From the IMG/VR virus record IMGVR_UViG_3300020473_000168, positions 1-20,220 of that record: a DNA stretch of 20,220 nt; one strand, 5' to 3'. Below, in pieces: positions 1 through 18,000 of the stretch. The notes under the pieces were generated by a model. The model was not told where the DNA came from. It did no database searches and saw nothing but the letters and a program-made list of their open reading frames with translations. Each line of letters opens with the position of its first letter. The first letter of the stretch is position 1. A program made the translations under genes and the position numbers. Source of the stretch: a virus.

Positions 1-3000
1 GTAGGTTTTGGTAATACTGGATTTTTCTATTTTATTGATTCTTTAGGTGATTATACAAAAGCAGAGTACAAATCAAAGTCATATAACCAATTTTTTGGTT
101 GTGTTGGAGTAACAACTTCTTTGCAGATCAGTGATCCAATAATTAGCGATAATTTTGTATTTGGTTATGAAAATAATGACATATCTAAAGTGTGTCAAAT
201 GAGAGTTGTTGGTTCTATTGCTGGATTATCATCAAAATACAAGAATACTAAGTTTTTAAATGCTGGAGATACTCTTGGAGTGAGATCTCTTGGAGAAAAA
301 AGGATAAATGATCCTAAATTTGATAGTTGGTTCCACAATAACATATCATATGTTGGAATTAGTAGTATTAACATATTTGTAAGTCAAATTGAAACTATAG
401 ATGATAATTATTTGAATGTTAATGATGATATTCACATTTATGAGAAGTTTACAACGAAAGAGTTGAATCCTGGTACTACATGGAAAGTAACAAAACTTAT
501 TGATAGTAAGCGTTTTGAAGTAAAGTCAAATAATCCATCAGATCCAGATATAAACTTCCCACCATCAGGATCAGTTAGTGTTGGTGCTACAGTTTATGAA
601 ATAAAGAAAAATTTAAGTTATGTTGATGAAAATCTTGGGTTTGATTCGTTAATTTCTGGTATACAAAACTCATTTACAGATCAGAATGATAATACTCTTA
701 TTGCGTTTTCTGGATATCCAACTGGTGGTATAGCTTCTACTGATAGATCACAAACTTTCCTTACTAGTGGAATAAGTACTGCTGGAACTGGTATTAATAT
801 TCCAAATCATGGATTTTTAAATGGAGAAAAAGTATATTATGAACCAATTCCTACAGATAAATGGGATAGTACTACAGAAACATTTGTAAAGACAACAGAA
901 GGAATATATTTGGGTGGTATAAACATAAAAGGTGATGCCTTTAGTTCAAATGAAGTTGGTATTGATACTGGAGTTTATTATATTAAGAAAATTGATGATA
1001 ATAATATAAGACTCTCTTTAAATGAGATTGGGGTATTTAATGATAATACACTATGGAATGTATATACTGATAGATTCCCAACACACAATCCAATTGGACT
1101 TGGAGATAGTACAAGTCCAGAAGTTACTCATAAATTAATACCATATCTGTTGTGGGAAGGAAATGGACTAGGAAATCAAAATAATTTTAAAAGAATACTT
1201 AAAAATACATTACCTGCAGAAGAAAAATATGATATTATTGGCCCAATTGGTGTTGGATTAAATGGAGTGGAACTTCATTCTCCAAAATCAGAGGATTTTT
1301 ATTATTATGGACAAATTGATTCAATTGATGTTATTGATAGTGGTGATGAAAATTATGATGCTATAAATCCACCAACAGTATCAATTGCTGATACCGCAGG
1401 TAATCAAGCACAGGGCATTGTTCATATATCAGAGGGTAAAATATCGGAAATAGTATTACAAACCAGTGGATGGGATTATGGAAGCGTACCAGGTGTTTCT
1501 ATTACTGGTGGTAATGGTATTGATGGTGAATGTGAAGCAAAAATGAGAGCAATTGACTATTCTGTTACTCTTAGAGAACAGGATGTCAATACTTCTACTG
1601 CTCCTAGTATAGTAGGTAATACAATTAGTATCGCATCTACAGTTGGATCATTTACTATAAATGAAGGTCATAGATTTATAACTGGTGAGAGAGTAATTTA
1701 TCAAAATAGTACTGGTGGAAGTACAATAGGAGTTGGTAGAACTCATGTTGGAATGAGTACTGATTCTCTTGTTAATGGAGCAATTTATTATGTTGTTAAT
1801 AATAATAGTAAGAATATTTCTCTTACCATAACAGAAGATTCTGCTCTTAAGAAAATACACCTTATAGATTTCTTAGACGATGGAGTTGGTAGTCATACAC
1901 TAACTGCAATACGTAAAAGACAAATTATTGATAGATTAGTTGTTAAAAATCCAGGAAGTGGGTATGGAAACAATAAAATTGAAGTTAAATCACAAAAATA
2001 TCCACCAGATGCTAGATCTGGTATATTAACTACTTTTACTGGTATAAGTACTCAAAATGATTACATATTTGCTAAAAATCATAATTTCTCAAGTGGGGAA
2101 ACTGTAAAATATACATCCAATAGTGTTATTGGTGGTTTAATAAGTGGTGTTGATTATGTTATAGATGTTATTGATAATGATAGATTTAAGATAAGTTCTT
2201 CTAAAACAGATCACAATAACAAAGTTTATATTAATTTGAATAGTAATGGTGTTGGAATACATACCTTCAATTATCCAGAAATAAAGGTAAATATTGAAGG
2301 ATCTTCTGCTGTTGGTGTAGGAAGTACTACATTACCATCATATTATACTGCAACTGCATATGCAGAAGCAAGAGGAAGGATTGATAATATATTCTTAACT
2401 GATGGTGGTGTTAGTTATGGATCTTCTGATGTTTTAAATTATTCAAGGCAACCAACAGTTAAGGTTAATACTGGAGAAAATGCTGTTGTTGGTTGTATAG
2501 TGGATTCATCTGGAAGAGTTGCTTCTGCATATGTTGTTTATGGTGGTACTGGATATACTACTCCCCCAATATTAGAAATTATTGGAACTGGTAGATTTGC
2601 AAAACTTTCTGCAACTGTAGAAAATGGAGAAATAACTGAAGTTCAAGTTATTCGTGGTGGTAGTGGTTACACAGAAGGTGTAACTAATGTTAAAGTATTA
2701 CCAGGTGGTTTTGGAGCAAATTTCAATGCAAATATCCATAAATGGAATATTAATACTGTAGAAAGATACAAATCAATATTACAACTTGGCCCAAATCAAG
2801 AACCTAATGTTTATAAACAAACAGTACAATTGCCATCAGATTATTCTGATCGAGGCAATAAAATTGCTGCATTTACTGCAACGAAACAACTTAGATTGGA
2901 ATTACAAGATAATTTGAGGATTAACAGTGCCAATCAGTATGAAGAAAAGCAAAATGCGAATAATAATGACCTATTAATACATTCTAAGATTATAGGTTGG

Positions 3001-6000
3001 GCATATGATGGAAATCCAATATATGGCCCATACGGGACAAAGGGTGGTCAATCTGCTAGATTATTGTCTAGTTATGAAAAGCAAAATATTCCTTACAATC
3101 AAGATTTAAGACCAAATGAGGTAAATGGATATTTTATAGAGGATTATTTCTTTAATGCTAATAATGGAGATCTTGATGAGTATAATGGAAGATATTGTAT
3201 AACTCCTGAATATCCAAATGGGACATATGCTTACTTTGCTTCAATAGATACCTCTGGAGAACCAAAATTTCCATATTTACCAATAAGACATAGAAATAGA
3301 AGTGATGAATTTAACTATAATGCATTTACAGATCAAACAGATAAGTATATCAATATTGGTGAGTATAGGAGAAATGTTCAGCATTATGGAATAAACGAAG
3401 AAAATAGAAGATATCCACTTCTTGGAATGCAAATAGATTCTAATGCATATTTGAATATTGAGAATACTAAAAAATCAGGTATATCAACTATAGTTGTTCA
3501 AGAACCAGGAACTTTTTATAAAGTTGGAGAAAAATTATCATTTAGTGGAGATACTTTCACTGGTGCAAATATTAGGGAAGTTTTAGGTAAAAACTTAGTT
3601 TCTATTGCTACTAGTGAAATAATAGAGAAAAATTTAACATTTAGTGTTGTTAATGATAATGTAACTGCATTCAGTACTCTTCCACATAGTTACAAATCTG
3701 GTGATTTTGTTCAAATTGCTGGAATTAGTTCTGCACAGTATGAGTTTATTGAAGGAGATCCCCATACAATTGGTGTTAATACTTCTATAATATCTACATT
3801 ATCTGTTGCTATTGGTGCTACTACAGTAACTGGTATAACAACATTCATTAGCATGTCAGAACCAACAGCATCTGCAAGATTTAATGTGGATGATGTTATT
3901 GAAATTGAAGACGAACAAATGTTAATTCTTGCTGTTGATCATGTTAACAGTAGATATAGAGTTCGTAGATATTACAATAGTTCTACACCTGGTGCTCATG
4001 ATGCTTCAAGAACTATAAAGAAATTACCAAAAGAGTTTACTTTTAAATCAAAAATTAGCATACCAAATAAAAGTGCGGAAATACCAAAAAAATATAATTT
4101 TGATGCTGAATTTGCTGTAGGTATAGGTAGCACAGCATCTAGAGTTCAAACAGGATATGTTGGTGTTGGTAATACTTGGACTTATGCTTTCAAAACAATT
4201 CCAGAACGAGCAATTTATCTTCCAGGTCATAAATTCCTAACTGGAGATAAAATATCTCTTGTTTCTATTGGAAGTACATTGAATGTTATTTTACCAAAAC
4301 ATGCTCCACATGCTTTTGCAGCAAATCCAATAACACAGCAATTTGATTTGTCTACTTTAGAACAACCATTCTATGCAGTTAAATTGAGTGATGAATATAT
4401 CGGTATATCAACTTCCAAAGTTGGATTCCAAACAAGTTATGTTTATTTCATTAATGCAACTGGTAAAGATCATAGAATTGAAACTATAGTCAATAATGTT
4501 ACTGGTAGAGCTACTAAAGTAGAAGCAACAGTTACTTTAGATGAAGAGCATTCGTTGCGAGCAAAAGATAGAATTAGATTTAAAATAGAACCAAAATTAA
4601 CTCAACGGTATAATTTTAAATTTAATGATGCAAATAGAGTATTAACTTCAAAAGAAGTTGGATTCACGACTGATAAAGTTGGTGTTGGTATTGGTAGTAC
4701 AAGTTCTCAATTCATAATTCCAAAGCATTCATATAGAACTGGTGATATAGTTGTATATAATTCTACTGATCCAATATCTCCATTAGTTAATGATGGAGTA
4801 TATGCTGTTGTTCGTGTATCTGATGATGAAATTAAACTTGCGGAAAATCAATATGATGCTACAAAATTACCTTATGAAGAAATCAAATTAACCAATGCTG
4901 GTGGTGGAACTAGTCCTAATGGTTCACTTGGGTCTATAAATCCTAGATTACTTTTTTATAGAGGGAATACAATAAGTCTTGGTATAGGTGATCCTAGTTT
5001 ATTGGGTTATAAAATCAATTTCTACTATGACGATAAATTTGAAGCAAGAGCAGACTTATCATCAGAAGATGTAGAATTAGTAGGTGATTATGGAGATGGT
5101 TCTGTAGATTCAGTATTAAAAATAACTGTAGGAAGTTCTTTCCCATCTACTCTTTACTATAGAGTAGAAGGTCATGGTGATCAGTATACTAGTACATATC
5201 CATCTGCAACAAATAGAGATGTTCCAAATCATTCAAATATTCGAGTTATAGATTCATCACTTAATGGTTTTCACAATATTACTGGTGTTGGTGAAACAAC
5301 ATTTAAACTAAATTTAGTTGGACTTGCTGAAACAACATTTTATGATACAGCAGGATTTAATACAGCATTTTACAGTACAACTTCTGAGACAGAAAGTGGT
5401 GGAATATATTCTATTGAGATAACTGATGCTGGATTCCATGATAGTATACCAAAAATAGTTTCTGTTGGTACAACAACTGGATCTGAAGCAATTTTCTTTG
5501 AAGATTCTTTGGATATAGGTCAAATACTAAGTGTAAATGTAGAAAATCAAGGATTAGAGTTTAATCCTGACACTACTCTTACTCCAAAGGCAGATGCAAA
5601 TACTGTCCTTAAATTAAGAGATGTTTATACTTTAAACTCTGTTGGTATTATTACTGGTGGAAAGAATTATACTTCAGCACCAGATGTTATTGCTATTGGA
5701 AATACTGCTATACAATTAAGTGCAACAATTGCTGGAAATTCTGTTGAAAAGGTTAAAATTTTAGCTAACGACACTGGATTATCTAAGAATATTAGATTCA
5801 TTCCAGTAAATAATTCAAACGGTGTTGGTATAATTAGTGCAAGTTCAGCATTTAAGGTTAATACTCTTAATATTAGAGCACCAATTGCTGGATTTACCAC
5901 TGCTAATCCATTCCCATTTGCTAAAGGTGATGAAATATTTGTTGAAAATGTAATAACAACTGATGGTGATGGATATAACTCTAGTGATTATGGTTTCAAA

Positions 6001-9000
6001 TATTTCACAGTTACTGGTATTAATACTATAGGTGGTGCTGAAAGTGTTGAGTATAATATTGCAGGATTTGGTAATACTGGTGGTGCAATGGATACTTCCA
6101 ATTTATTTGGAAGAATAATTAAGAAAGATGACTTAGCATCATTTGAAGGTAAGTTAGATAAAGTTAGTTTTGTTGAGGGTGAAAAAGTTAATCAAATTAA
6201 TGGTACTGCTGTTGGTATTGTTGCTAAAGATGGATGGAATACTAATGCACAAACACTTAAGTTGAGAGGTGTTAAAGGAATATTTGAAAATAAATCTAAG
6301 GTTCTGGGTTCTATTAATGGTGGAAAATCCATAATTCAGAATGTGCATGATTTTAATTTTGATTTGGATGTTCAAAGTGTTGTTGAAAAACAACAAAATT
6401 GGGAAAATGACAAAGGAAAATTAAATTTACATGATCAGAGATTGCATGATAATGATTATTATCAAAGATTCTCATATTCAATTCAAGGTGAAGAACCTTA
6501 CGAAAACTGGAAGGATATAGTTAAGAGTTTGGGTCATATATCTGGATATAAAGCATTTAGTGACTTAGAAGTAATTAATGGTCTTGGAACTACTGTTGGT
6601 ATGAGTACAATACCAGCAGAAATACAATTTAAAGTTGAACTTAATAATGAAGCATCTGTTTATGATAGGTACTTCTATGATCTAGCATCTGAAGATACTT
6701 CAAATCCAAATTTATCGAAAATTATTACTTTTGATTCTAAAGTTCTTACTGATTATGCAGAATCTAGAACCAATAAGGTTTTATTGCTTGCAGATATAAG
6801 TGACCAATTTACTGGTCAAAATAGAACATTTACTGGTATACACACATTCATGAGTGCAACTCAGACTGCTGTTACTATAGTTTCTGGTGGAAGTGGAAGT
6901 TTAGGGCCAACTACTGGAACAACATATGATCCTTCTACTGGTGTATTAACCATCTTTACACAAGAACCTCACAAATTACTTAATACAAATACTGTTTCTT
7001 TAGTTGATGATTCTATTACATTCAGATGTGATAAAGATAATTATGGTACAGATCATACATATCCTCGTTCTACTGATCCAGCATCTACATCAAATGATAA
7101 ACTTAATAATGGTATATTGGCAATTGGAAATACTACTGAAAATTCATTCCAAGTAACTGTAAACAATCCAACAACTGGTGGTCAGACTGTAGGATTACAT
7201 ACATTTACTCTTTATACTGTAGATAAGGAAAATGAAGTACCAGTTGCTGGTATTAGTACTGAAAGGTTATTCTTTAAAACTATAAATCCTACAACTAATA
7301 TAAACACAACTACTGGATATTTTGATATTCCAGAACATGAATTTAATTTGGGAGAACAGTTATTATATTCACCAAATGGTGGAGGAGCAATACAAATTGA
7401 TAATGGTAGTGGAGGAAACACAAATCTTCCATCAGAAGTTTATGTTATTAATTCAACAGATCCAAGAGATAGAAGGTTGTTTAGGTTAGCAACTAGTTTA
7501 GTAAATGCTAATGCTGGAATCGCTGTTACTGTCACTGGAGTAGGATCAGGAACTGAGCATACATTTGCTGTACCATCAGAACTTGCTACCAATAGAACAA
7601 TGATTTCTATTGATAATGTGATTCAAAGTCCCATATCCTTCAATAAAGGAGTTGCACTTGGATTAGCAAGAGCTGTTGGAATAGGATCGACACAGATTAC
7701 TTTATCTGATACTTCAAAAGTACAAGGAAATGATATAATAAAAATTAAAAATGAATTAATAAAAGTTAACCTAGTAGGTATATCCTCTGGTAATGTTTTA
7801 GATGTTACTAGAGGTGTAATGGGAACCTCTAATGCTGCACATGCCATTGGAGCAGCAGTAACTGCCATTTCAGGTGATTATAGAATAGAAAATGGTATCA
7901 TACATTTTACAGATGCACCCTATGGGCCAATTGGACAAAGACCATTGACTACTAGATCTTCATTTTCAGGAAGATCATTCTATAGATTAAATTATACTAA
8001 CAATAAGACTTTTGATGATATTTCTGAACAATTTGATGGAACAACAAAATTATTCAATATAAAGCAGAATGGTGTTCAAATTTCTGGTATTCAGACTAAT
8101 TATGGTATTGTACTAGTTAATAATATCTTCCAAGATCCACATCATGGAGATGGTGGTTCAAGTTGGAATATTTCTGATTATAGAATAGAAAGTCCAGGTC
8201 AACAAATAGAATTTGAAGGTACTGCTGGAGCTCCATATGTAAATCAAGGATCTAATACTGGAGAAGTTCCAATTGGTGGAGTTATCAATGAATTTGATGT
8301 GAATCCTGGTGTTGGTATACAATCATCATTTACTGCTATTGCAGAGGCAAATGTAAGCGTTGGTGGAACAATATTATCTGTAGGTATCGTAACTGCTGGT
8401 AGTGGTTATCTATATCCTCCTAGAGTTTCTATAGGATTGACAAATTATGCATTTGACCATAGATTTGTTGCTGCTGGAACTAATTCTATTAGTGTTCAAG
8501 GTGGTGGAAATTTAACACCAACATTTGCAACATATAATCCAACAAGTGGTGTTTTATCATTAACAATTCCAAATCATGGATTAAATACAAGCAATAAAGT
8601 TACTATTGCTAATAATTCATTAATATTCAAGTGTTCTAAAGACAATTACACAACAGATCATGCATATCCAAGAGCAAATGTAGATCCAGTTTCTGGTATA
8701 GCAACTTCAGTTTTATCTGTAGAAACCAATTTAATTACTGTAAGTATTCATCCATCAGTTGGTGTTGGTGCTTCATTGGTTGCTAATGTTGTTAATGGAG
8801 AAATTTCTAGTATAGATGTAGTAAGTCCAGGAGCTGGTTATACTACAACATACCAACCAACTATTACTATAGATCCACCTTCACCTTGGAATGATGTTCC
8901 TTTAACTGGAGGAAATGGTTCTGGAGCAACTATGGATGTTGTAATTGGTGTTGGTGGTAGTGCAATTCAATATTCACTAAACAATCCAGGAGTTGGTTAT

Positions 9001-10422
9001 GATGTTAATGATGTTTTGAGTCTAGATCCAGTTCCATATAGTGTTGGTGCTGGTGCTACATCCCCATTCCAAATAACTGTCAAAAACAGACATCAAGATA
9101 AATTCTCTGGATGGAGTTTTGGTCAATTATTTGAACTTGATGATTTTAGTAATCTATTCAATGGATTTAGAAAATCATTCCTAATTACTAGAACAGTTGT
9201 TGATAAGGAATATTACAGTATTATTAAACGAGAAGGATCTGGAATAGTTCTTGCTAACAATTTGCTTATATTCATTAATGATATTCTACAAAAACCTGTT
9301 GAAGATTATACTTTCACTAAAGGTACAAGAATAACATTTAAGGAACCACCAAAACCAGGAAGTAAGTTTAGAATGTACCTATATGTTGCTTCTACTGATG
9401 ATTATTTGAGTGTTGATGTTGAAGAAACAATTAAACCAGGTGATGGATTGACAATTCAGCAGTGGAATGATTTAACTGGAAGTTCATTATTTGCTCAAGA
9501 TAGGAGAATTGTTTATGAGTTAATTTCTTCTGACTCTGTAGAAACTCAAACATATACTGGCATTGGGATTAGAACTGATGGTTTATTGAGACCAATTAAA
9601 TGGTCTAAACAGAAGTCTGATACCCTTATTGACGGTATTAAGATTTCTAAGGCAAGAGCATATTTGGAACCATTAATTCAACCATCAACTAACATTATTC
9701 AACCAGTAGGTGCTGGAGATACTGTAATTTATGTTAAGAATATATATCCAACCTTTCAGAGTTATGATGATGTTTCCACTAATTTGAATAATATTAGAAT
9801 AGTTGGACAAGGTAGTACTGCTGTAGTTGAAAATCTTCAGAAAGTTACATATGGTGGTGATTATGGCCCAATTGTTGCTATAGGTCATTCTGCTATAGGT
9901 ACAGGAGTAAGTGTAACAAAACCATCTCTTTATTTTGATTTGGTTCCAAATTTTGATATTCAAAGTGAAATAACTAGATCTGGACTATCAACTGGTGATT
10001 ATTTTGTTGTTCAAGGTACTAATATTGGTGCAGTTGGTGGAGGAGTAACTTCTCTAGGAATTTCAACAAATACCGTTGTAAGCACAGGATCTTCCTTTAT
10101 AGATAATGTTTATTATGTTCATCATTATGAACATTCTAATACTCCAGGTATAGTAGGATTTGGTGCATCAACTCTTAGAGTATATTGTAATGTTGACCAA
10201 TTAACTGGTATAGATACTACAACACTATTAGATCCAATGATACCACCAGTTGCTGGAGCTTCTGGGGGTGGATATGGAAACTATACTTGGGGATTGATTA
10301 ATGTGTCAAGATCAGTCAATACTGCTAAGGTATTTGAGTGCTATAATCATAATGGATTGGTGGGTATAGAAACATCCGCACAGGTATCGAGAATATTAGG
10401 CCTTAAATCTATTCTCAAATAA
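1..10422 (+). CDS. Giant gp7-like baseplate wedge protein, 5' end missing
   Basis: The frame is open from the first base of the window, so the true start is upstream; the TTG at 121 is only an internal codon. At least 3473 residues are visible, ending at TAA 10420-10422. T4 gp7 is about 1030 residues, so this is a hugely expanded relative. The gp7 assignment rests on position just before a gp8-like gene, on a YHYH-type domain (window codons about 1000-1100: WAYDGNPIYGPYG, then CITPEYPNGTYAYF), and on a segment at codons 2141-2195 (HDNDYYQRFSYS, then SGYKAFSDL) that I recognise from marine T4-like wedge proteins. The rest is mainly beta-rich repeats: about 13 GxGY-type units, about nine 'H-x-F-x-x-G-[DE]' units, and modules resembling phage 'NNxxQxPxxDY' segments. 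Gly, Ser, Thr, Asn and Val dominate, and no membrane segment or signal peptide is visible in the portion present. Inferred role: structural wedge component with many surface decorations. A generic giant virion protein is the alternative if gp7 homology fails. Confidence 0.8.
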   Translation, partial: VGFGNTGFFYFIDSLGDYTKAEYKSKSYNQFFGCVGVTTSLQISDPIISDNFVFGYENNDISKVCQMRVVGSIAGLSSKYKNTKFLNAGDTLGVRSLGEKRINDPKFDSWFHNNISYVGISSINIFVSQIETIDDNYLNVNDDIHIYEKFTTKELNPGTTWKVTKLIDSKRFEVKSNNPSDPDINFPPSGSVSVGATVYEIKKNLSYVDENLGFDSLISGIQNSFTDQNDNTLIAFSGYPTGGIASTDRSQTFLTSGISTAGTGINIPNHGFLNGEKVYYEPIPTDKWDSTTETFVKTTEGIYLGGINIKGDAFSSNEVGIDTGVYYIKKIDDNNIRLSLNEIGVFNDNTLWNVYTDRFPTHNPIGLGDSTSPEVTHKLIPYLLWEGNGLGNQNNFKRILKNTLPAEEKYDIIGPIGVGLNGVELHSPKSEDFYYYGQIDSIDVIDSGDENYDAINPPTVSIADTAGNQAQGIVHISEGKISEIVLQTSGWDYGSVPGVSITGGNGIDGECEAKMRAIDYSVTLREQDVNTSTAPSIVGNTISIASTVGSFTINEGHRFITGERVIYQNSTGGSTIGVGRTHVGMSTDSLVNGAIYYVVNNNSKNISLTITEDSALKKIHLIDFLDDGVGSHTLTAIRKRQIIDRLVVKNPGSGYGNNKIEVKSQKYPPDARSGILTTFTGISTQNDYIFAKNHNFSSGETVKYTSNSVIGGLISGVDYVIDVIDNDRFKISSSKTDHNNKVYINLNSNGVGIHTFNYPEIKVNIEGSSAVGVGSTTLPSYYTATAYAEARGRIDNIFLTDGGVSYGSSDVLNYSRQPTVKVNTGENAVVGCIVDSSGRVASAYVVYGGTGYTTPPILEIIGTGRFAKLSATVENGEITEVQVIRGGSGYTEGVTNVKVLPGGFGANFNANIHKWNINTVERYKSILQLGPNQEPNVYKQTVQLPSDYSDRGNKIAAFTATKQLRLELQDNLRINSANQYEEKQNANNNDLLIHSKIIGWAYDGNPIYGPYGTKGGQSARLLSSYEKQNIPYNQDLRPNEVNGYFIEDYFFNANNGDLDEYNGRYCITPEYPNGTYAYFASIDTSGEPKFPYLPIRHRNRSDEFNYNAFTDQTDKYINIGEYRRNVQHYGINEENRRYPLLGMQIDSNAYLNIENTKKSGISTIVVQEPGTFYKVGEKLSFSGDTFTGANIREVLGKNLVSIATSEIIEKNLTFSVVNDNVTAFSTLPHSYKSGDFVQIAGISSAQYEFIEGDPHTIGVNTSIISTLSVAIGATTVTGITTFISMSEPTASARFNVDDVIEIEDEQMLILAVDHVNSRYRVRRYYNSSTPGAHDASRTIKKLPKEFTFKSKISIPNKSAEIPKKYNFDAEFAVGIGSTASRVQTGYVGVGNTWTYAFKTIPERAIYLPGHKFLTGDKISLVSIGSTLNVILPKHAPHAFAANPITQQFDLSTLEQPFYAVKLSDEYIGISTSKVGFQTSYVYFINATGKDHRIETIVNNVTGRATKVEATVTLDEEHSLRAKDRIRFKIEPKLTQRYNFKFNDANRVLTSKEVGFTTDKVGVGIGSTSSQFIIPKHSYRTGDIVVYNSTDPISPLVNDGVYAVVRVSDDEIKLAENQYDATKLPYEEIKLTNAGGGTSPNGSLGSINPRLLFYRGNTISLGIGDPSLLGYKINFYYDDKFEARADLSSEDVELVGDYGDGSVDSVLKITVGSSFPSTLYYRVEGHGDQYTSTYPSATNRDVPNHSNIRVIDSSLNGFHNITGVGETTFKLNLVGLAETTFYDTAGFNTAFYSTTSETESGGIYSIEITDAGFHDSIPKIVSVGTTTGSEAIFFEDSLDIGQILSVNVENQGLEFNPDTTLTPKADANTVLKLRDVYTLNSVGIITGGKNYTSAPDVIAIGNTAIQLSATIAGNSVEKVKILANDTGLSKNIRFIPVNNSNGVGIISASSAFKVNTLNIRAPIAGFTTANPFPFAKGDEIFVENVITTDGDGYNSSDYGFKYFTVTGINTIGGAESVEYNIAGFGNTGGAMDTSNLFGRIIKKDDLASFEGKLDKVSFVEGEKVNQINGTAVGIVAKDGWNTNAQTLKLRGVKGIFENKSKVLGSINGGKSIIQNVHDFNFDLDVQSVVEKQQNWENDKGKLNLHDQRLHDNDYYQRFSYSIQGEEPYENWKDIVKSLGHISGYKAFSDLEVINGLGTTVGMSTIPAEIQFKVELNNEASVYDRYFYDLASEDTSNPNLSKIITFDSKVLTDYAESRTNKVLLLADISDQFTGQNRTFTGIHTFMSATQTAVTIVSGGSGSLGPTTGTTYDPSTGVLTIFTQEPHKLLNTNTVSLVDDSITFRCDKDNYGTDHTYPRSTDPASTSNDKLNNGILAIGNTTENSFQVTVNNPTTGGQTVGLHTFTLYTVDKENEVPVAGISTERLFFKTINPTTNINTTTGYFDIPEHEFNLGEQLLYSPNGGGAIQIDNGSGGNTNLPSEVYVINSTDPRDRRLFRLATSLVNANAGIAVTVTGVGSGTEHTFAVPSELATNRTMISIDNVIQSPISFNKGVALGLARAVGIGSTQITLSDTSKVQGNDIIKIKNELIKVNLVGISSGNVLDVTRGVMGTSNAAHAIGAAVTAISGDYRIENGIIHFTDAPYGPIGQRPLTTRSSFSGRSFYRLNYTNNKTFDDISEQFDGTTKLFNIKQNGVQISGIQTNYGIVLVNNIFQDPHHGDGGSSWNISDYRIESPGQQIEFEGTAGAPYVNQGSNTGEVPIGGVINEFDVNPGVGIQSSFTAIAEANVSVGGTILSVGIVTAGSGYLYPPRVSIGLTNYAFDHRFVAAGTNSISVQGGGNLTPTFATYNPTSGVLSLTIPNHGLNTSNKVTIANNSLIFKCSKDNYTTDHAYPRANVDPVSGIATSVLSVETNLITVSIHPSVGVGASLVANVVNGEISSIDVVSPGAGYTTTYQPTITIDPPSPWNDVPLTGGNGSGATMDVVIGVGGSAIQYSLNNPGVGYDVNDVLSLDPVPYSVGAGATSPFQITVKNRHQDKFSGWSFGQLFELDDFSNLFNGFRKSFLITRTVVDKEYYSIIKREGSGIVLANNLLIFINDILQKPVEDYTFTKGTRITFKEPPKPGSKFRMYLYVASTDDYLSVDVEETIKPGDGLTIQQWNDLTGSSLFAQDRRIVYELISSDSVETQTYTGIGIRTDGLLRPIKWSKQKSDTLIDGIKISKARAYLEPLIQPSTNIIQPVGAGDTVIYVKNIYPTFQSYDDVSTNLNNIRIVGQGSTAVVENLQKVTYGGDYGPIVAIGHSAIGTGVSVTKPSLYFDLVPNFDIQSEITRSGLSTGDYFVVQGTNIGAVGGGVTSLGISTNTVVSTGSSFIDNVYYVHHYEHSNTPGIVGFGASTLRVYCNVDQLTGIDTTTLLDPMIPPVAGASGGGYGNYTWGLINVSRSVNTAKVFECYNHNGLVGIETSAQVSRILGLKSILK
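2380..2700 (+). repeat. Three consecutive GxGY beta repeats in the gp7-like protein
   Basis: Three units follow one another: IDNIFLTDGGVSYGSSD (Tyr at window codon 806), ASAYVVYGGTGYTTPP (Tyr 852) and EVQVIRGGSGYTEGV (Tyr 890). Each has the pattern I-x-x-[IV]-x-[IV]-x-x-G-G-x-[GS]-Y followed by a second short strand. Spacing is 46 and 38 residues. Related isolated units occur elsewhere in the same protein, with the aromatic or turn position near codons 452, 491, 655, 1173, 1812, 1854, 1890, 2803, 2947 and 3000. The units are degenerate at DNA level, so they are old protein repeats and not recent tandem DNA duplications. Confidence 0.75.
2998..3300 (+). other. YHYH-type domain inside the gp7-like protein
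   Basis: Window codons 1000-1100 contain W-A-Y-D-G-N-P-I-Y-G-P-Y-G followed about 65 residues later by CITPEYPNGTYAYFAS and then FPYLPIRHR. This order (a DG.PIYGP core, a GtYhYf-like strand, a yPY segment) matches the YHYH family domain found in secreted bacterial proteins and in marine T4-like baseplate proteins. The eponymous YHYH signature reads TYAYF here, so both histidine positions are replaced (A and F). Its function in virions is unknown to me. Confidence 0.75.
3805..4014 (+). repeat. 'RR/RG...H' module, copy A (gp7-like protein)
   Basis: This stretch runs from VAIGATTVTGITTF through DDVIEIEDEQMLILAVD to VRRYYNSSTPGAHDAS. It has the architecture seen in copies at 7672-7869 and 18310-18540: a short strand with repeated T/I, a 'D-x-I-x-I-x-x-E-x-[IL]' strand, then an arginine-led loop ending near a histidine. 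It is the most diverged of the three because the usual RG.. G dipeptide reads RR. Confidence 0.55.
6919..7080 (+). repeat. 'DNYxTDHxYPR' module, copy 1 (gp7-like protein)
   Basis: Reads TYDPSTGVLTIF, then EPHKLLNTNTVSL, ITFRCDKDNY, GTDHTYPRSTDP. A second copy lies at 8530-8688 in the same protein and keeps the order and spacing: TYNPTSGVLSLT, NHGLNTSNKVTI, LIFKCSKDNY, TTDHAYPRANVDP. The conserved Cys, Asp-Asn-Tyr, Thr-Asp-His and Tyr-Pro-Arg positions make this a clear intragenic duplication. I recall similar motifs in other marine cyanophage structural proteins. Confidence 0.8.
7606..7932 (+). other. Split 'NNxxQxP ... DYxI' module with nested insertion
   Basis: The segment begins MISIDNVIQSPISF and ends GDYRIENGIIHFTDAPYGP. 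In the other two copies in this protein (around 8020-8240 and 9145-9380) the Q-x-P and D-Y parts are close together. Here about 85 residues separate them, and that space holds an RG..GT..AH module (IGSTQITLSDTSKVQG, then DVTRGVMGTSNAAHAIG). The simplest reading is a domain inserted in a loop of another domain. The nesting is inferred from motif order only. Confidence 0.6.
7672..7869 (+). repeat. 'RGxxGTxxAHxxG' module, copy B (gp7-like protein)
   Basis: Visible parts are AVGIGSTQITLSD, GNDIIKIKNELIKV and VTRGVMGTSNAAHAIGAAV. It matches copy C at 18310-18540 in the DUF4815 gene (TSTTIKVVNASSF, IGKEIIEYKN, ITRGIDSSLKSNHDVNEYVYI). It sits between the two halves of another repeat module. Confidence 0.65.
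8020..8240 (+). repeat. 'SxxFxG ... NNxxQxP ... DYxI' module, copy 2
   Basis: Reads FDDISEQFDGTTKLFNI, then GIVLVNNIFQDP, then SDYRIESPGQQIEFEG. The order D-x-S-x-x-F-x-G, then a hydrophobic NN-x-x-Q-x-P strand, then D-Y-x-I with a following I-x-F strand recurs at 9145-9380. This is a pattern seen in many phage tail-fibre and baseplate proteins. Confidence 0.65.
8530..8688 (+). repeat. 'DNYxTDHxYPR' module, copy 2 (gp7-like protein)
   Basis: This is the partner of 6919-7080. It reads TYNPTSGVLSLTIPNHG, then NKVTIANNSLIFKCSKDNY, then TTDHAYPRANVDP. About 500 residues separate the two copies, and the intervening protein is unlike them, so this is a dispersed duplication. Confidence 0.8.
9145..9380 (+). 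repeat. 'FxG ... NDxxQxP ... DYxF' module, copy 3
   Basis: Reads FSNLFNGFRKSFLI, then LLIFINDILQKPVEDYTF, then GTRITFKEPPKPGSKFRMY. This is the most complete and compact version of the module. The E-P-P-x-P-G-S segment corresponds to the 'AP..G' turn of copies 1 and 2. Confidence 0.65.
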
Positions 10423-10424
10423 AG

Positions 10425-10432
10425 TATAAATA
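10425..10432 (+). promoter_or_regulatory. T4-type late promoter upstream of gp8-like gene
   Basis: The octamer TATAAATA lies in the 27-bp gap between the gp7-like stop and the gp8-like ATG. T4-like late promoters consist of this single -10 element, read by the phage sigma factor gp55 with gp33 and the sliding clamp. By T4 spacing transcription would start near 10438, leaving a leader of only about 12 nt. No good Shine-Dalgarno sequence lies before the ATG at 10450. Confidence 0.7.
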
Positions 10433-10449
10433 ATCAAAAAAGTACGGCA

Positions 10450-12033
10450 ATGCCAGCAATTATAACCGATCAGTTTAGAATATTAAATGCTGAGACTTTT
10501 ATCAACAGTTTTGTTGGTGTAGGAACAACTGCTAATTATTACTATACGTTTTTAGGTCATCCAAATCCGAAAGAAGTGGATGTTCCAGGATATACTGATA
10601 TTGATTGGAATGAAGTAGTTCCAGAACCAAGAGACTCTTTTAAAGAAGAGAATTCTTATCATGATAGTATGTTATTTCTTAAAAAAATAACAAGTTCTGA
10701 TGTTACTAGAGTTATTCCAAGATATAACTGGCAATCTGGATCAACCTATGACATGTATAGGAATAATTATGAAATTGATAATCCTTCTAACCAATTAAAT
10801 GCCAAAACACTATACGAATCTAAGTATATTGTAGTTAATTCGGAATTTAAGGTTTATATGTGCCTTAATAATGGTTCAGATCCAAGTAACTTGAATGGAA
10901 AGAAATCATTAGTTGAACCTAATTTTGTTTCTTCTACTCCACAAGCAGCATCAAATACTGCTACCGATGACTATCTTTGGCAATATCTTTTTACAATATC
11001 TCCTGCTGATATAATAAAATTTGCTACAGATAACTATATTCCTGTTCCCAAATCTTGGGTTCCTGAATCTACTATAGTAACTGGTTCAGTTAAATCTATT
11101 GTAGTAAAAAATGCTGGTTCTGGTTATGAATTGAATAATGGAAATGGAGGAGATGTAATTACAGTTCCAATTCTTGGTGATGGTACTGGTGGAAAAGCAA
11201 CATTAAATGTTAGTGGTAAAAAAGTTACTAGTGCTTACATATCTGATGGTGGAAGTGGATATACTAAAGCGTTCTTAAGATTTTCTGTTACGGAACCAGA
11301 TGATTTTATTACAGATGTTAATGGAGCTAAAATTGCTGGAACAGAAACAGTAATTAAGTTAACAGGTGGTACTGAAGCACAATTTGAAATACCAATTCCA
11401 CCAAAAGGTGGACATGCTTATGACATTTATAGGGATGTTGGTGCTTATAGAGTAATGGTTTATTCTAAGTATGATTCTGATCCTGATTGGATTGTTGGAA
11501 ATAGTTTTTCTAGAATTGGAATAGTTAAGAATCCAACAACTTATACTAGTAAGACTGAGAGAATAAATAAATCTACTTTGACAAATCTTGCTGCATTGAA
11601 GTTTAGTGCAAACAATACTGTAGAGTATACTGTTAATACACAGATAACTCAAACACTAGATAATGGAGATACTGCAGTAGGAGTAGTTGCTTCTTGGAAT
11701 AAGACCACAGGAGTATTAAAGTATTTCCAACCTGTAGGTATTTCATCTCAGACCAATTCTGGTTATAAACTTGCACAATTTGATGGTACTGCTTCTAATA
11801 AAGCGATAAATCAAACAGGTGTAGCATCACCTGGTGTTATAGATTCTAACTTTAATGCAGACTTTGAAACTATTGGAGGAAAAAGGTATGAGTATGGTCA
11901 ATCATTTAGTAATGGGGTTGCATTACCCGAAGTTGGTAAATATTCTGGTGATATAATTTATGTTGATAATAGAGCGTCAATCGTTAGATCTGCTGCTCAA
12001 AAAGAAGAAGTCAAAATCGTAGTAGAGTTCTAA
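10450..12033 (+). CDS. 8: gp8-like baseplate wedge protein
   Basis: A 527-residue protein starting at ATG 10450, directly after a late promoter. The N-terminus (RILNAETFINSF), the YNWQSGSTYDMYRNN region, SEFKVYMCLNN (about 132-142), DDYLWQYLF (173-181) and the GHAYDIYRDVGAYRVMV region (from about 321) correspond to conserved blocks of T4-like gp8. T4 gp8 is 334 residues, and much of the extra length is a beta-repeat insertion at about 215-275, with two GxGY units (VVKNAGSGYELNN, Tyr 226; SAYISDGGSGYTKAF, Tyr 271) of the kind abundant in the preceding giant protein. In T4, gp8 dimerises and joins gp7 and gp10 in the wedge. The 3-bp gap to the next gene points to co-translation or at least co-transcription. 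The start is supported by spacing and homology and not by a strong ribosome binding site. Confidence 0.87.
   Translation: MPAIITDQFRILNAETFINSFVGVGTTANYYYTFLGHPNPKEVDVPGYTDIDWNEVVPEPRDSFKEENSYHDSMLFLKKITSSDVTRVIPRYNWQSGSTYDMYRNNYEIDNPSNQLNAKTLYESKYIVVNSEFKVYMCLNNGSDPSNLNGKKSLVEPNFVSSTPQAASNTATDDYLWQYLFTISPADIIKFATDNYIPVPKSWVPESTIVTGSVKSIVVKNAGSGYELNNGNGGDVITVPILGDGTGGKATLNVSGKKVTSAYISDGGSGYTKAFLRFSVTEPDDFITDVNGAKIAGTETVIKLTGGTEAQFEIPIPPKGGHAYDIYRDVGAYRVMVYSKYDSDPDWIVGNSFSRIGIVKNPTTYTSKTERINKSTLTNLAALKFSANNTVEYTVNTQITQTLDNGDTAVGVVASWNKTTGVLKYFQPVGISSQTNSGYKLAQFDGTASNKAINQTGVASPGVIDSNFNADFETIGGKRYEYGQSFSNGVALPEVGKYSGDIIYVDNRASIVRSAAQKEEVKIVVEF
11092..11290 (+). repeat. Two GxGY beta repeats inserted in the gp8-like protein
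   Basis: The units are IVVKNAGSGYELNN and AYISDGGSGYTKAF, 45 residues apart, close to the 38- and 46-residue spacing in the gp7-like gene. They lie between the conserved N-terminal and C-terminal gp8 blocks, so they look like an added loop decoration. Confidence 0.75.
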
Positions 12034-12036
12034 GAA

Positions 12037-15000
12037 ATGACACAAAACACCAATCTAAATATTTCGCCATATTTTGACGATTTTAATGAGGATAAGAACT
12101 ATAATAAAGTTCTGTTTAAACCTGGTTTCCCAGTTCAGGCAAGGGAATTAACTACTCTACAATCGATTCTTCAAAACCAAATAGAAAGATTTGGTCAATA
12201 TATCTTTAAAGAAGGATCACCTGTAATACCTGGTGGTACTAATTATGATAATAGATATTATGCTGTAAGAATAGATCCAACATATCTAAATCTACCAGTT
12301 AGTGCATATACAGATGTTTTAGCATCCAAAAAAATACAAATAAAAGGAGAAACTACTGGAGTTGTAGCAACAGTTGTTAATAGAATTACTGCAGTAGAAT
12401 CTATTGATGATTTTGATACTTTATATGTAAAATATACTTCTTCTGGTACTGATGGTGTAACTAAAGAATTTCAAGATGGTGAAAATTTAATTACTCTTTC
12501 TGATATTGATTTTGCTTCAACAAAGATTGCTACTAACAGTTCTTTCGCTAATTGTATAGCAACAGGTTCAACTAAAATTGGATCGTCTGCATCTATAAGT
12601 GAAGGAATATATTTCATTAGAGGTTATTTTGTAAAAGTTCCTACAGAAACAATAATTTTAGATCAATATACGAATGAACCAAGTTATAAGGTTGGATTTA
12701 ACATAAATGAGCAGATTTTATCTGCGTCTTTGGAAAATAGTGATTTATATGATAATGCACAGGGATTTTCTAATGAAGCAGCACCAGGTGCTGATAGATT
12801 TTCTATGTCTGTAACTTTATCTAAGAAGTTACTTTCAGACAATGAGGATAAGAATTTCGTAGAGTTAATACGTGTAAGAGATGGTGTTTTAGAAAAATAT
12901 ACTGATGGAACAGCTGATTTAAATTTACTTGGAGATGCTCTTGCAAGAAGGACTTATGATGAATCTGGAGATTATTATGTAAGACCATTTGCAGTTGATG
13001 TAAGGGAATCTCTTAATGATAGGATTGCAAATAGAGGTTTATATCTAGAAAATCAATTAACTCAAAATGGAAATACACCATCTGATGACATTTATTGTTT
13101 AAATGTATCTCCAGGAAAGGCATATGTAAGAGGATATGAGGTTAATAAGGGTTTTACATCAGCAATTGATGTAGTTAAACCAAGAACAACAAAATTAAGA
13201 GAAAATGTTAATCTTCCAATAAAAATTGGAAATGTTGTTACTGTTAATAATCTATATGGATCACCAAAAATAGGGTATGCTCAACCAACACAAAATTATG
13301 TCAATTTAAGAAGTGACAGATTGAGTGCAAACAGATTATCATCAACTGAACCTGCTGGTGCTGTTGGTTTTGGTATTGGTAAAGCAAGAGTTTATGACTG
13401 GACTGAAAAAAATGTTAAAGGTGATGCATACGAATATGAAGTGAGATTATATGATATACAGTTATACACTCAAATATCTGTTGGAATTGCACTAACTTAT
13501 ACTGACAATGATTATTTTGAAGGAAAGTATAGTGGAGCAAGTGGATTCTGTAATGGTGGCGGTACTTTTGATTGGGTAAGTTTAACAGATGTTAGAGGAC
13601 AGTTCCAAATTAATGAACCATTATTACAAAATGGAATAGATATTGGATGTAATGTTGGTGTTGCAACTGACTATAGTTTTGAAGATGTCAAGGCTATGGA
13701 AAGAGTAGTAGGAGTTTCTACTTTTGCTGCAGATTTAGATCTAAACCGTAATAAAAAAACATTTGATTCTGGATTTGAATTTGAAATTACTGGTAATAAT
13801 AATTTAAAATGTGCTGGTATTCCAGATTTAAGAGAATTTATCAAAACAGGTGATATTATATCCTATATGGTTACTCAGGGTCTAAATGCAGGTGTTACTC
13901 TACCCCAATATAATAAAGTTGTTTCTGTTACACAAAATGAGGCAACTATTGCTGGTGTACCATCTGTTGCTGGTGTATGTGATGGAGATGTTATAAACAG
14001 CACACCAACTGGTGTTGATGTTATTATTCCGTCTATTAAAGAAACTGATAACATAGGACTTAGAATACCTTTTTCTAATCCTTATGTTTCTTCTGTCAAT
14101 GTATTAGATTCTTCTTATATAATAAGAAAACAACTTACAGCAACAGTTACTAATCCTGGTGGAGTTGCTACTTTCCTTTTAGCAGATACTGGTGATGCAA
14201 ACATATACTTTGAGCAATTTGATATTGATAAGTATGTTTTGACTTATGATTCAAAAGCAAATTCAAATACAACTCAAGGAGAAAGAGTTAATTTAAGAGA
14301 AGAACAGGTAACTATATCAGCTGATGCTGGTGTTGGCATGAGAAAATTGCAGATAGTTGGACTAGTAGAAGGTGCTCCAGTAACTTTATCTGCTACTCTT
14401 AAAAGAACTAAATTAGCTTCAAAAGTAAAAGAACTTTCAAGATGCAACAATCTTTTAATTAATAGATCAAAATATGATGGATCTGGTTCAACGGCAGTTA
14501 CATTTAATGATGGTCTAACATCTAGTATTGTTTATGGTACAAGAGTACAGGATAAAGAAATATCATTGAATAAGGCAGATGTACATAGAGTTTTGGGAAT
14601 ATTTGAATCTAGTGGTTCTGGAGAACCTGCTTTACCAGTATTGATTGCTACTGATACTTCTGATGTTTTTACTAATAGTAATGTTATAGTTGGTGAACAG
14701 TTTATTGGAAATAGATCTGGTGCTTTAGGTAGAGTTGTTATTGTAAATGATAGTGATGAATTAGCATTTGTGTATGAGAATAGAAAAGAGTTTGAAATTG
14801 GTGAAACTATTACTTTAAAATTATCTGGTATAATTGGAACTATAAGTTCAATAAACCAAGGTGATAGAAATATCTTAGATAGTTATGAAGTTGATACTGG
14901 GCATAGACCAGAATTTGTTGATTTTGGTAGAATAGTAAGAAAGAAAGATGTAGAAGAACCAACTAGATCTTTAAGAATTATTTTTGATTACTTTAAAACT

Positions 15001-18000
15001 GATGAAACACAATTGGGTGCTAGTGTTGAATCAATCAACAGTTATAATGGTTTAAATTATTCTACTGAAATTCCATTTATTATTGATAGAAGAGCATCTG
15101 ACTTTATAGATTTAAGAGCAAGAGTAAAGGACTATGATACTGCTAGTTCAAAGTCACCATTTACTTTCAATAGTAGAGATTTCTCTGAATCTGCATCTGA
15201 TACTGTAGCAACTAAAGAAACTGTTGTAGTTGATTATAGTCATTACCTTGGTAGAGTAGATAGACTATATTTGACAAAAGATGGAATATTTGAAGTTAAG
15301 AAAGGGGAACCAGGAATTGCTCCTAAAGCACCATTACCAAATGATGAGGCACTTGAAGTTGCTTTAATTAAGATGCAACCTTATGTTGTAAATGCAACAG
15401 CTAATGCAACAGTTAGTTTAATTCCCCATAAGAGATACACCATGAAAGATATTGGTGGTCTTGAACATAGAATTAAGAATCTTGAGAATTATACTACCCT
15501 TTCTCTTCTTGAGACTGATACTAAAAACTTGGCAATTAAAGATCCAAATACTGGACTAGATAAATTTAAGTCTGGTTTCTTTGTAGATAACTTTAGAAAT
15601 CATGCTTCTCATAATTTTAGTGGAGATTCTCAGTTTGATATAGATTTAAAAACAGGCGAATGTAGACCAAGAAGTACAGAAAGAAATGTTTCTCTTGTAT
15701 TTGAAACTAAGTCTTCCAAATTAAATCCATTAGGAACTGACTATAGATTTACTACTGATTTTGATTCTGATAATATTACAAGAAATGGGCCTGGTCTAAC
15801 TCTTAAATTTACAAATGAGATATTTATTGATCAACCATTAGCAACAAGAGTAGAGAATTTAAATCCATTCCAACTTACAATATATTCAGGAACTATAGAA
15901 TTAACTCCAGCATCTGATTTCTGGATTGATGAAATTGTTGCTGACACACCAGAAACTATCAATATTGGTGATGGAGTCTTCAGTGCTCTTGCAGAATTGA
16001 TGGGAGTTGAAGATAGGGAAAATGGTGGAATGTCAACTGGTGTATTCAACAGTAGTGAAGTTACATGGGGTGCTTCGGAATTTATTTCGGAAGAGTTGGT
16101 TAGCAGTGAAGTTATTGGTAGTGAAAGTAATTCTGAATGGAGAGGAAATACAGAATTTACAACAACTAATGAAACAATATCAAATGATTTCTTGAGGACA
16201 TTTAACCAAAGTGGAATTGAAAGGGACTTTGGATTTGAATTAACTTCACATACAGAAACTGTAAATCTTGGGCCAAAAGTTACTGGTACTGAAGTTCTTT
16301 ATAACTGTAGGTCAAGAAATATTGAAGTAGTTGGTAAGAGATTAAAACCAAATACAAAATATTATGTTTTCATGGAAAATGTTGATGTTACTCAATATTG
16401 TGTTCCAAAATTAATTCCTATTACAATGAATAGGGGTTCATTTACTGCATCAGACATTATTACCAATACTGGTGTACAAATAGCGTTGCTTGGTGTTCCT
16501 GGAATTACATTTAGAGCTGCTCAACAAAATCATAAATTTGGACAATTCAACAACCCATCAGAAGTTTATTCTACTGAACCATATAATCAAACCACATTAT
16601 CTTCATCATATTCTGCAACTAGTCCAGTATTGAATGTAGATACTTTTGATCTTGGTGATCAAAGAACTGTTGAAAGATTGGGTTGGGTTCAAGAGGGTCA
16701 AAGACTTGCTAATGAAAGTGGAACTGCAGAAGCAACTGTAGGTGCTTTAGCACTTATGAGTGATGATTTTGGTAATTTGATATTCTCTTTACATATTCCA
16801 GATCCTTCAAATGAGAGTAATCCTAAGTTTACTACTGGACTTAATACTATTAGGGTAACTACAAGTGCTACTAATGCTAATATATTGGATCCAGGTGAAG
16901 CATCTGCACAAACAACATATCTTTCATCTGGTTATGCACAGTATAGTGTAGAGCAAACACTTTCAATTAAAACTCCAGAAGTTGAGAGGAAGCAAATTGG
17001 TACTGATCAACCAATAACTAGAATAACTACTGAATTGGAAGAAGACAGAATTGAGCAAAGAGTTACAGTAGAAGAAACTGGTTGGAGAGATCCATTGGCA
17101 CAATCATTTATTGTACCAAGAGATAAGTATGCTGATGGTATGTTTATTACTGGAGGTGAATTATTCTTTAAAGCAAAAGATGATAGCGATGTAACTGTAC
17201 AACTTAGAGAGTTGGATGAGACTGGAAGACCTTCTCAAACAATATTACCATTTGGTGAAACTAAAATTATATCAACAAATGCTGGAATATCTACAAATGG
17301 TACTGTAGCAACAGAGTTTGCATTCTCAACACCAGTTTATTTGGAAGGTAATGGTAGATATGCTATTACTTTACTTACTCCAACTACTGGATGGAATACA
17401 TTTATTACTAGAATGAATGAACCTGATTTAATTACAGGTAGATTAAATGATAAACAACCAACATTAGGTTCATTGTTTAAATCACAAAATGGTCAATTGT
17501 GGACAGCAAGTAATCAAGAAGATCTTAAATTTAAACTCTTTAAGGCAAAATTTGTAACTAATACACCAGCAAGTGTTATTCTTTTCAATAATAATATTCC
17601 TACTGGTAAGATTAGAAAGCAAAATGCAGTTACAGTATATTCCAAGAGACAATATGTTTCTATAGCAAATACTGATAGAGAGTTTGATCAGGGTAATACT
17701 ATAACTCAAGGAGCAAATACTGGTAATATATTTGAATTTGGTGGCCCAATTGATGTTACCAATAATGTACAAGGATTTGTAAATAGTGGTCTTGCTGTTA
17801 CATTTACCTGGCATGATAATTTTACTTCACCAGGAACTGGAATTGGACTAACACCTACTACTGGAGCAGCTAAACAATATGATGGTATTTCATTTACTTC
17901 ACTTAATGGTCATGGAACAGGTGCTCAAGCAACTGTTAAGGTTCAAAATGGTAGATGTGATAAAATTATAATGACTGCAGGTGGTAAAGGTTATAAAGTA

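Follow-up and report, generated by a model that had tools for sequence, protein, structure and literature searches.

The first copy of a small repeated beta domain (CORE) in a giant gp7-type baseplate wedge initiator is read here, with a probability of about 0.87, as one domain that carries three independent domains in three of its loops. The window, i.e., the whole stretch of DNA analyzed, is a cyanomyovirus fragment from IMG/VR (virus record of 20,220 bases), and its nearest annotated relatives, which infect Synechococcus and Prochlorococcus, belong to the Kyanoviridae. Frame 1 is open from base 1 to 10422 on the plus strand and encodes 3,473 aa of gp7, the 5′ end of which lies outside the window; the product matched phrog_2885 ("baseplate wedge subunit") with E = 0. 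Annotated gp7 homologues are located between gp6 and gp8 in Kyanoviridae, and in the window gp8 lies 3′ of gp7 (nt 10450-12033; Phage-Gp8 match, E = 2.7e-12), followed by a structural DUF4815 protein of 2,472 aa and a small tail-assembly-like protein. Both the homology to annotated gp7 and the place directly upstream of gp8 identify the gene as Kyanoviridae gp7, and this giant tail-baseplate protein belongs to an ocean virus infecting cyanobacteria.

The region of interest, all features of which are encoded on the plus strand, is preceded by an anchor domain that is not repeated (nt 6412-6783, about aa 2138-2261) and that served as the basis for the orthology of copy 1. Copy 1 starts with the opener LLADISDQFTGQNRT (nt 6784-6828; CORE HMM positions 4-21), is interrupted by insert 1, the DNYxTDHxYPR module (DNY; nt 6829-7173, aa 2277-2391, 115 aa), which is a gap in all insert-free homologues, and continues with TGGQTVGLHTFTLYTVDKENEVPVAGI (nt 7174-7254), which runs on from the opener in insert-free homologues. 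Insert 2, the HEF module (nt 7255-7578, aa 2419-2526, 108 aa; HMM score 108.6 bits), is followed by the third piece ELATNRTMISIDNVIQSPISFN (nt 7579-7644), recognized by CORE HMM positions 27-46 and the spliced alignment, whereupon insert 3, the RG..GT..AH module (RG; nt 7645-7860, aa 2549-2620, 72 aa; HMM score 89 bits), precedes the fourth piece TAISGDYRIENGIIHFTDAP (nt 7861-7920), assigned by the spliced alignment and by model strands at aa 2627-2630 and 2633-2636. SFSGRSFYRLNYT (nt 7960-7998) is probably the last strand of copy 1, as it aligned with the last strand SKFRMYLYV of copy 3, which was modelled as a strand there. CORE copy 2 (nt 8005-8226, aa 2669-2742; source of the HMM, 94.9 bits) and copy 3 (nt 9130-9396, aa 3044-3132; 37.6 bits) are compact. 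A second DNY module (nt 8458-8748, aa 2820-2916) is flanked by GSGY-type beta repeats; five relatives lack it, with clean junctions.

A sequence-only reading of this DNA had pointed to the compactness of copies 2 and 3 and to scattered motifs of copy 1, and motif positions as well as the CORE HMM confirmed both: the opening motif ISDQFTGQNRTFTG spans aa 2266-2279 (nt 6796-6837), IDNVIQSP follows 271 residues later (aa 2537-2544), and RGVMGTSNAAH and DYRIENG lie at aa 2604-2614 and aa 2626-2632, respectively. The opening motif was rightly taken as part of copy 1, but its proposed end QNRTFTG crosses the insertion boundary, FTG belonging to the DNY insert. Similarly, the proposed insertion of whole domains holds, but not its restriction to two places: strand 2 of copy 1 (HTFTLYT, about aa 2399-2405) stands between DNY and HEF, which thus occupy different loops, so that copy 1 is interrupted three times. 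In insert-free relatives, e.g., the gp7 of locus L007 (DISDQFTGFTTTTGGQVVGLTTFALYTIDTPGQ), the opener is continuous with the second strand, which places DNY between strands 1 and 2. The loop holding HEF joins strand 2 to the IDNVIQ strand, and RG separates IDNVIQ from DYRI.

Whether split or compact, the copies were compared using a CORE HMM made from copy 2 and its orthologues only. This HMM matched copy 3 at aa 3047-3113 and, in copy 1, matched with positions 4-21 at aa 2264-2281 and with positions 27-46 at aa 2526-2545, i.e., in the right order; the opener by itself scored 8.7 bits. When copy 1 was spliced in silico (aa 2262-2273 + 2396-2418 + 2527-2546 + 2623-2643), the score rose to 36.3 bits as compared to 37.6 bits for the contiguous copy 3, and the true order of the pieces scored best of all 24 permutations. 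The CORE host domain is hence contiguous after removal of the inserts. When the same protein was spliced at random with the order kept, the highest score in 20,000 trials was 11.4 bits, and 20,000 shuffles peaked at 12.4 bits. Moreover, the spliced copy 1 of 142 distinct gp7s scored a median of 25.6 bits, as compared to a median of 1.4 and a maximum of 11.7 bits when the pieces were shifted by 25 residues; the scores dropped in the most distant phages, 43 of the 142 gp7s remaining below 15 bits. A chance or compositional likeness between short beta-rich motifs might be suspected, given that the pieces are short and gp7 is full of similar beta-strand motifs. However, all null splices, shuffles and shifted controls stayed at or below 12.4 bits, and homologues with contiguous pieces exist, which makes this explanation negligible.

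Structure prediction with AlphaFold2 was carried out for aa 2195-2745 with 55 sequences, from which stand-alone DNY copies had been dropped since MAFFT aligned them on HEF. The model displayed a mean pLDDT of 67.6, with values near 90 from HEF through RG and below 50 for the opener and much of DNY. The flanking motifs, whose pairing across the inserts the sequence-only reading had proposed to check, were not seen to form separate domains, and copies 1 and 2 are predicted to share the same strand order at matching places (LYT/LFN, the IDN pair, YRIE and IIHF/QIEF). Since the copy-1 opener was not placed by AlphaFold2, the presumed strand pairing across DNY rests on homology. Copy 3 alone, modelled with 80 sequences, yielded a pLDDT of 84 and a pTM of 0.75, and the compact CORE is accordingly modelled with confidence as a single all-beta domain uniting the opener and the later strands. 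We propose that the copy-1 pieces would likewise fold back into one sandwich from which the inserts would project outward.

Foldseek comparison of CORE with the PDB retrieved, among others, the N-terminus of the T7 tail fibre gp17 (7boz; probability 0.99, 103 columns spanning the whole CORE) and further T7-type fibre N-termini (8es4, 7ey9 and 8vbx); the probabilities were 0.95-0.99, but E-values were 0.03-0.2 and TM-scores about 0.35-0.5. In BFVD, the matches included the cyanophage wedge initiators of S-SSM7 (5.7e-8) and Bellamy (3.1e-6). At the profile level, CORE matched a structurally solved phage depolymerase (9k4a, E = 2.6e-5), with a further, weak match to the P-SCSP1u cyanophage fibre (8i4m, E = 0.12). 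The solved-structure search with the whole gp7 returned chance matches only. CORE is recognized by no Pfam family; for copies 2 and 3, a threshold as loose as E ≤ 10 still brought up no family of fibre N-termini. For this reason CORE is not assigned to the T7 fibre family, and the label "fibre-type" seems reasonable only as a resemblance of its predicted fold to the N-terminal domain by which T7-type fibres attach to the tail. Unlike the T7-type fibre N-termini, with which it shares no significant sequence match, CORE occurs several times within one baseplate wedge protein, with copy 1 interrupted. Foldseek with the whole region gave no match below E = 0.001, the hits being mostly tailspikes, F1-ATPase chains and partial baseplates, and HEF and DNY are therefore not assigned to a fold.

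Forms of copy 1 without inserts occur naturally. The anchor profile for the upstream domain was built without the opener in order to keep the orthology test independent of it, and it matched gp7 of S-SM1, P-SSM4 and S-TIM4 at E = 4e-17 to 4e-16; in these three phages a compact CORE without DNY, HEF and RG directly follows the upstream domain. Furthermore, 163 gp7s retaining HEF and RG were surveyed at the DNY site (site 1), and the opener was present at the copy-1 place in every one of them. Site 1 was empty (21-33 aa) in 54 of the 163, which is the comparison with homologues lacking one insert that the sequence-only reading had suggested. DNY occupied the site in nine gp7s (144-151 aa), a block of about 390 aa in 99 (391-436 aa) and a different tail-fibre module of 203 aa in one, that of Synechococcus phage DSL-LC03; no lengths between 33 and 144 aa were found among the 163. 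S-CAM9 is an example of the empty site and P-SSM2 of the large block. The DSL-LC03 insert matched short-tail-fibre and tail-fibre families (phrog_4527, 1.1e-23), and internal repeats in the block of about 390 aa were weakly supported. Thus, the earlier view that whole domains are inserted into loops of copy 1 is borne out by the gp7s without DNY, by the three phages without any of the inserts and by the splice test. With relatives holding nothing, DNY, another tail-fibre module or the large block, site 1 acts as a socket. A homologue with HEF alone or RG alone was not found among the gp7s examined, which suggests that HEF and RG may have arrived together.

These insert-free forms also bear on the possibility that the opener, IDNVIQ and DYRI pieces are remnants of separate decayed COREs in a tandem array of degenerate repeats, with the modules strung between them as beads. 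The repeat-rich nature of gp7, in which HEF and DNY occur many times and CORE twice in compact form, would be compatible with such an origin, as would the low score of the opener alone. Against it, the pieces are complementary within one model, stand in the right order and duplicate no part, the opener is retained at the copy-1 place throughout the survey, and P-SSM4, S-SM1 and S-TIM4 have one compact CORE at the syntenic position; this origin is accordingly very improbable.

A different objection accepts the split but takes the compact copy 1 seen in the clade of P-SSM4 and S-SM1 as derived, HEF and RG having been lost there and DNY having been lost repeatedly. In the tree of the flanks, the large-block state forms one clade (support 97, starred), whereas the DNY state requires three changes, at least two of which are forced by starred, well-supported branches. 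The DNY sequences from site 1 nevertheless form one group (support 90, unstarred), and the second DNY of the protein that carries them is not their nearest neighbour. One group of sequences with a state scattered over the flank tree makes losses of DNY or recombination likely, and the history of DNY would fit either a single gain followed by losses or an exchange of DNY among phages. This pattern, together with the fact that the tree cannot tell gain from loss, speaks for a derived compact form. On the other hand, compact CORE is the common form, as in copies 2 and 3 and in matches in 339 phage records including Pelagibacter phages, and DNY, HEF and RG are found independently of CORE. We consider a derived compact copy 1 rather unlikely and retain the reading of copy 1 as one CORE with three domains in its loops.

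The insert modules recur widely. DNY gave 228 matches across the examined loci and also matched phrog_1276 and phrog_5342 (tail fibre), HEF has further copies within the same gp7, and RG matched the tail and tail-fibre PHROGs 1101, 11439 and 9851. A second RG copy is located in another part of gp7 (aa 1275-1339, nt 3823-4017) and is present in many of the examined gp7s. The second DNY is absent with clean junctions in S-CAM9, S-8S56, DSL-LC03, Bellamy and DSL-LC02. In P-SSM4 (L023), gp7 contains an array of about ten DNY modules, with fewer in S-TIM4 (L024), and gp7s of the P-SSM4/S-TIM4 clade possess a tandem CORE pair near the C-terminus. Direct repeats as a transposon might leave were found at the boundaries of neither DNY insert, and the GC content of the DNY insert (0.33) is ordinary as compared to that of the gene (0.32); consequently, no mobile-element mechanism is claimed for DNY. 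The recurrence of the modules in tail-fibre families suggests that fibre genes are a likely donor pool, and recombination among related module copies, which are numerous in giant tail genes, would be the likely route of insertion.

Taken together, gp7 seems to expand by accepting prefabricated domains into a frame that itself stays stable. One possibility is that each CORE copy is a rigid beta frame, in which loop modules would alter the exposed surface while the path of the chain through the frame is kept. The least certain part of this proposal is its purpose: tentatively, the putative role of the inserts may be to vary the outer baseplate surface, i.e., fibre or host contacts, with the scaffold left undisturbed. 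It is a more doubtful suggestion that site 1 is a putative general socket of marine cyanomyoviruses for swapped tail-fibre-derived domains, the occupant of which might help to set the cells or fibres engaged.

Kyanoviridae gp7 (phrog_2885) shares gene, place before gp8 and domain order with the window gp7. The annotated records checked give product names only, and no description of the split CORE or its variable site in cyanophage gp7 was found in the papers available to a literature search. Nested domains are known from the T4 tail sheath protein gp18, in which domain I lies in II, II in III and III in IV (PMC3004832). As in gp18, whole domains are inserted within domains of a phage tail protein; however, gp18 is a sheath protein with nests one inside the next, whereas the window gp7 carries three inserts side by side in one small domain, with one insertion site differing between relatives. 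The exchange of fragments among tail and baseplate proteins is likewise known (PMC10684548); that survey concerns domain combinations, whereas in gp7 the exchange takes place within a domain, at loops. The T4 proteins gp10, gp11 and gp12 have a common fold decorated by big loops (PMC3004832) and are similar in being baseplate-periphery proteins diversified by insertions in a shared small fold, but they carry loops where the window gp7 carries recurrent, self-standing modules. In T4, gp7 is monomeric and sits at the periphery of the baseplate, touching gp10, gp8 and gp6 (PMC3004832), and cyanophage gp7 is several times larger. Thus, this kind of organization is already known from the nested domains of gp18 and from tail mosaicism, and gp7 adds a form of it in which the socket has three insertion sites, one of them variable.

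Most giant structural proteins of marine phages carry the annotation "unknown". The organization described here provides a rule for reading them, namely as short recurring modules, some of which are nested inside others, and the natural pairs with an empty site make a correction possible for annotation tools that cut proteins into consecutive domains. It also provides a testable case, namely a defined loop where the surface parts of the baseplate vary from one related ocean virus to another.

In the window DUF4815 protein (P0004, nt 12037-19455), an RG-like stretch IEYKNANTTSNELEQITRGIDSSLKSNHDVNEYVYIYE was seen by eye, and a profile search of this protein detected no RG module. Elsewhere in gp7, a YHYH domain was recognized at nt 2980-3249 (aa 994-1083; Pfam, 5e-19), for which a role as metal-dependent hydrolase has been proposed (PMC7824862). 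In DSL-LC02 (L018), gp7 is annotated as two genes (1054-8598 and 8602-12900), the second of which encodes 1433 aa and starts just upstream of copy 1, implying that the CORE cluster can be a separate polypeptide. Additional genes are located between gp7 and gp8 in P-TIM68 (L026, 12858-15302) and in S-SCSM1 (L025, 16935-18288), in the latter including a 2OG-Fe(II) oxygenase.
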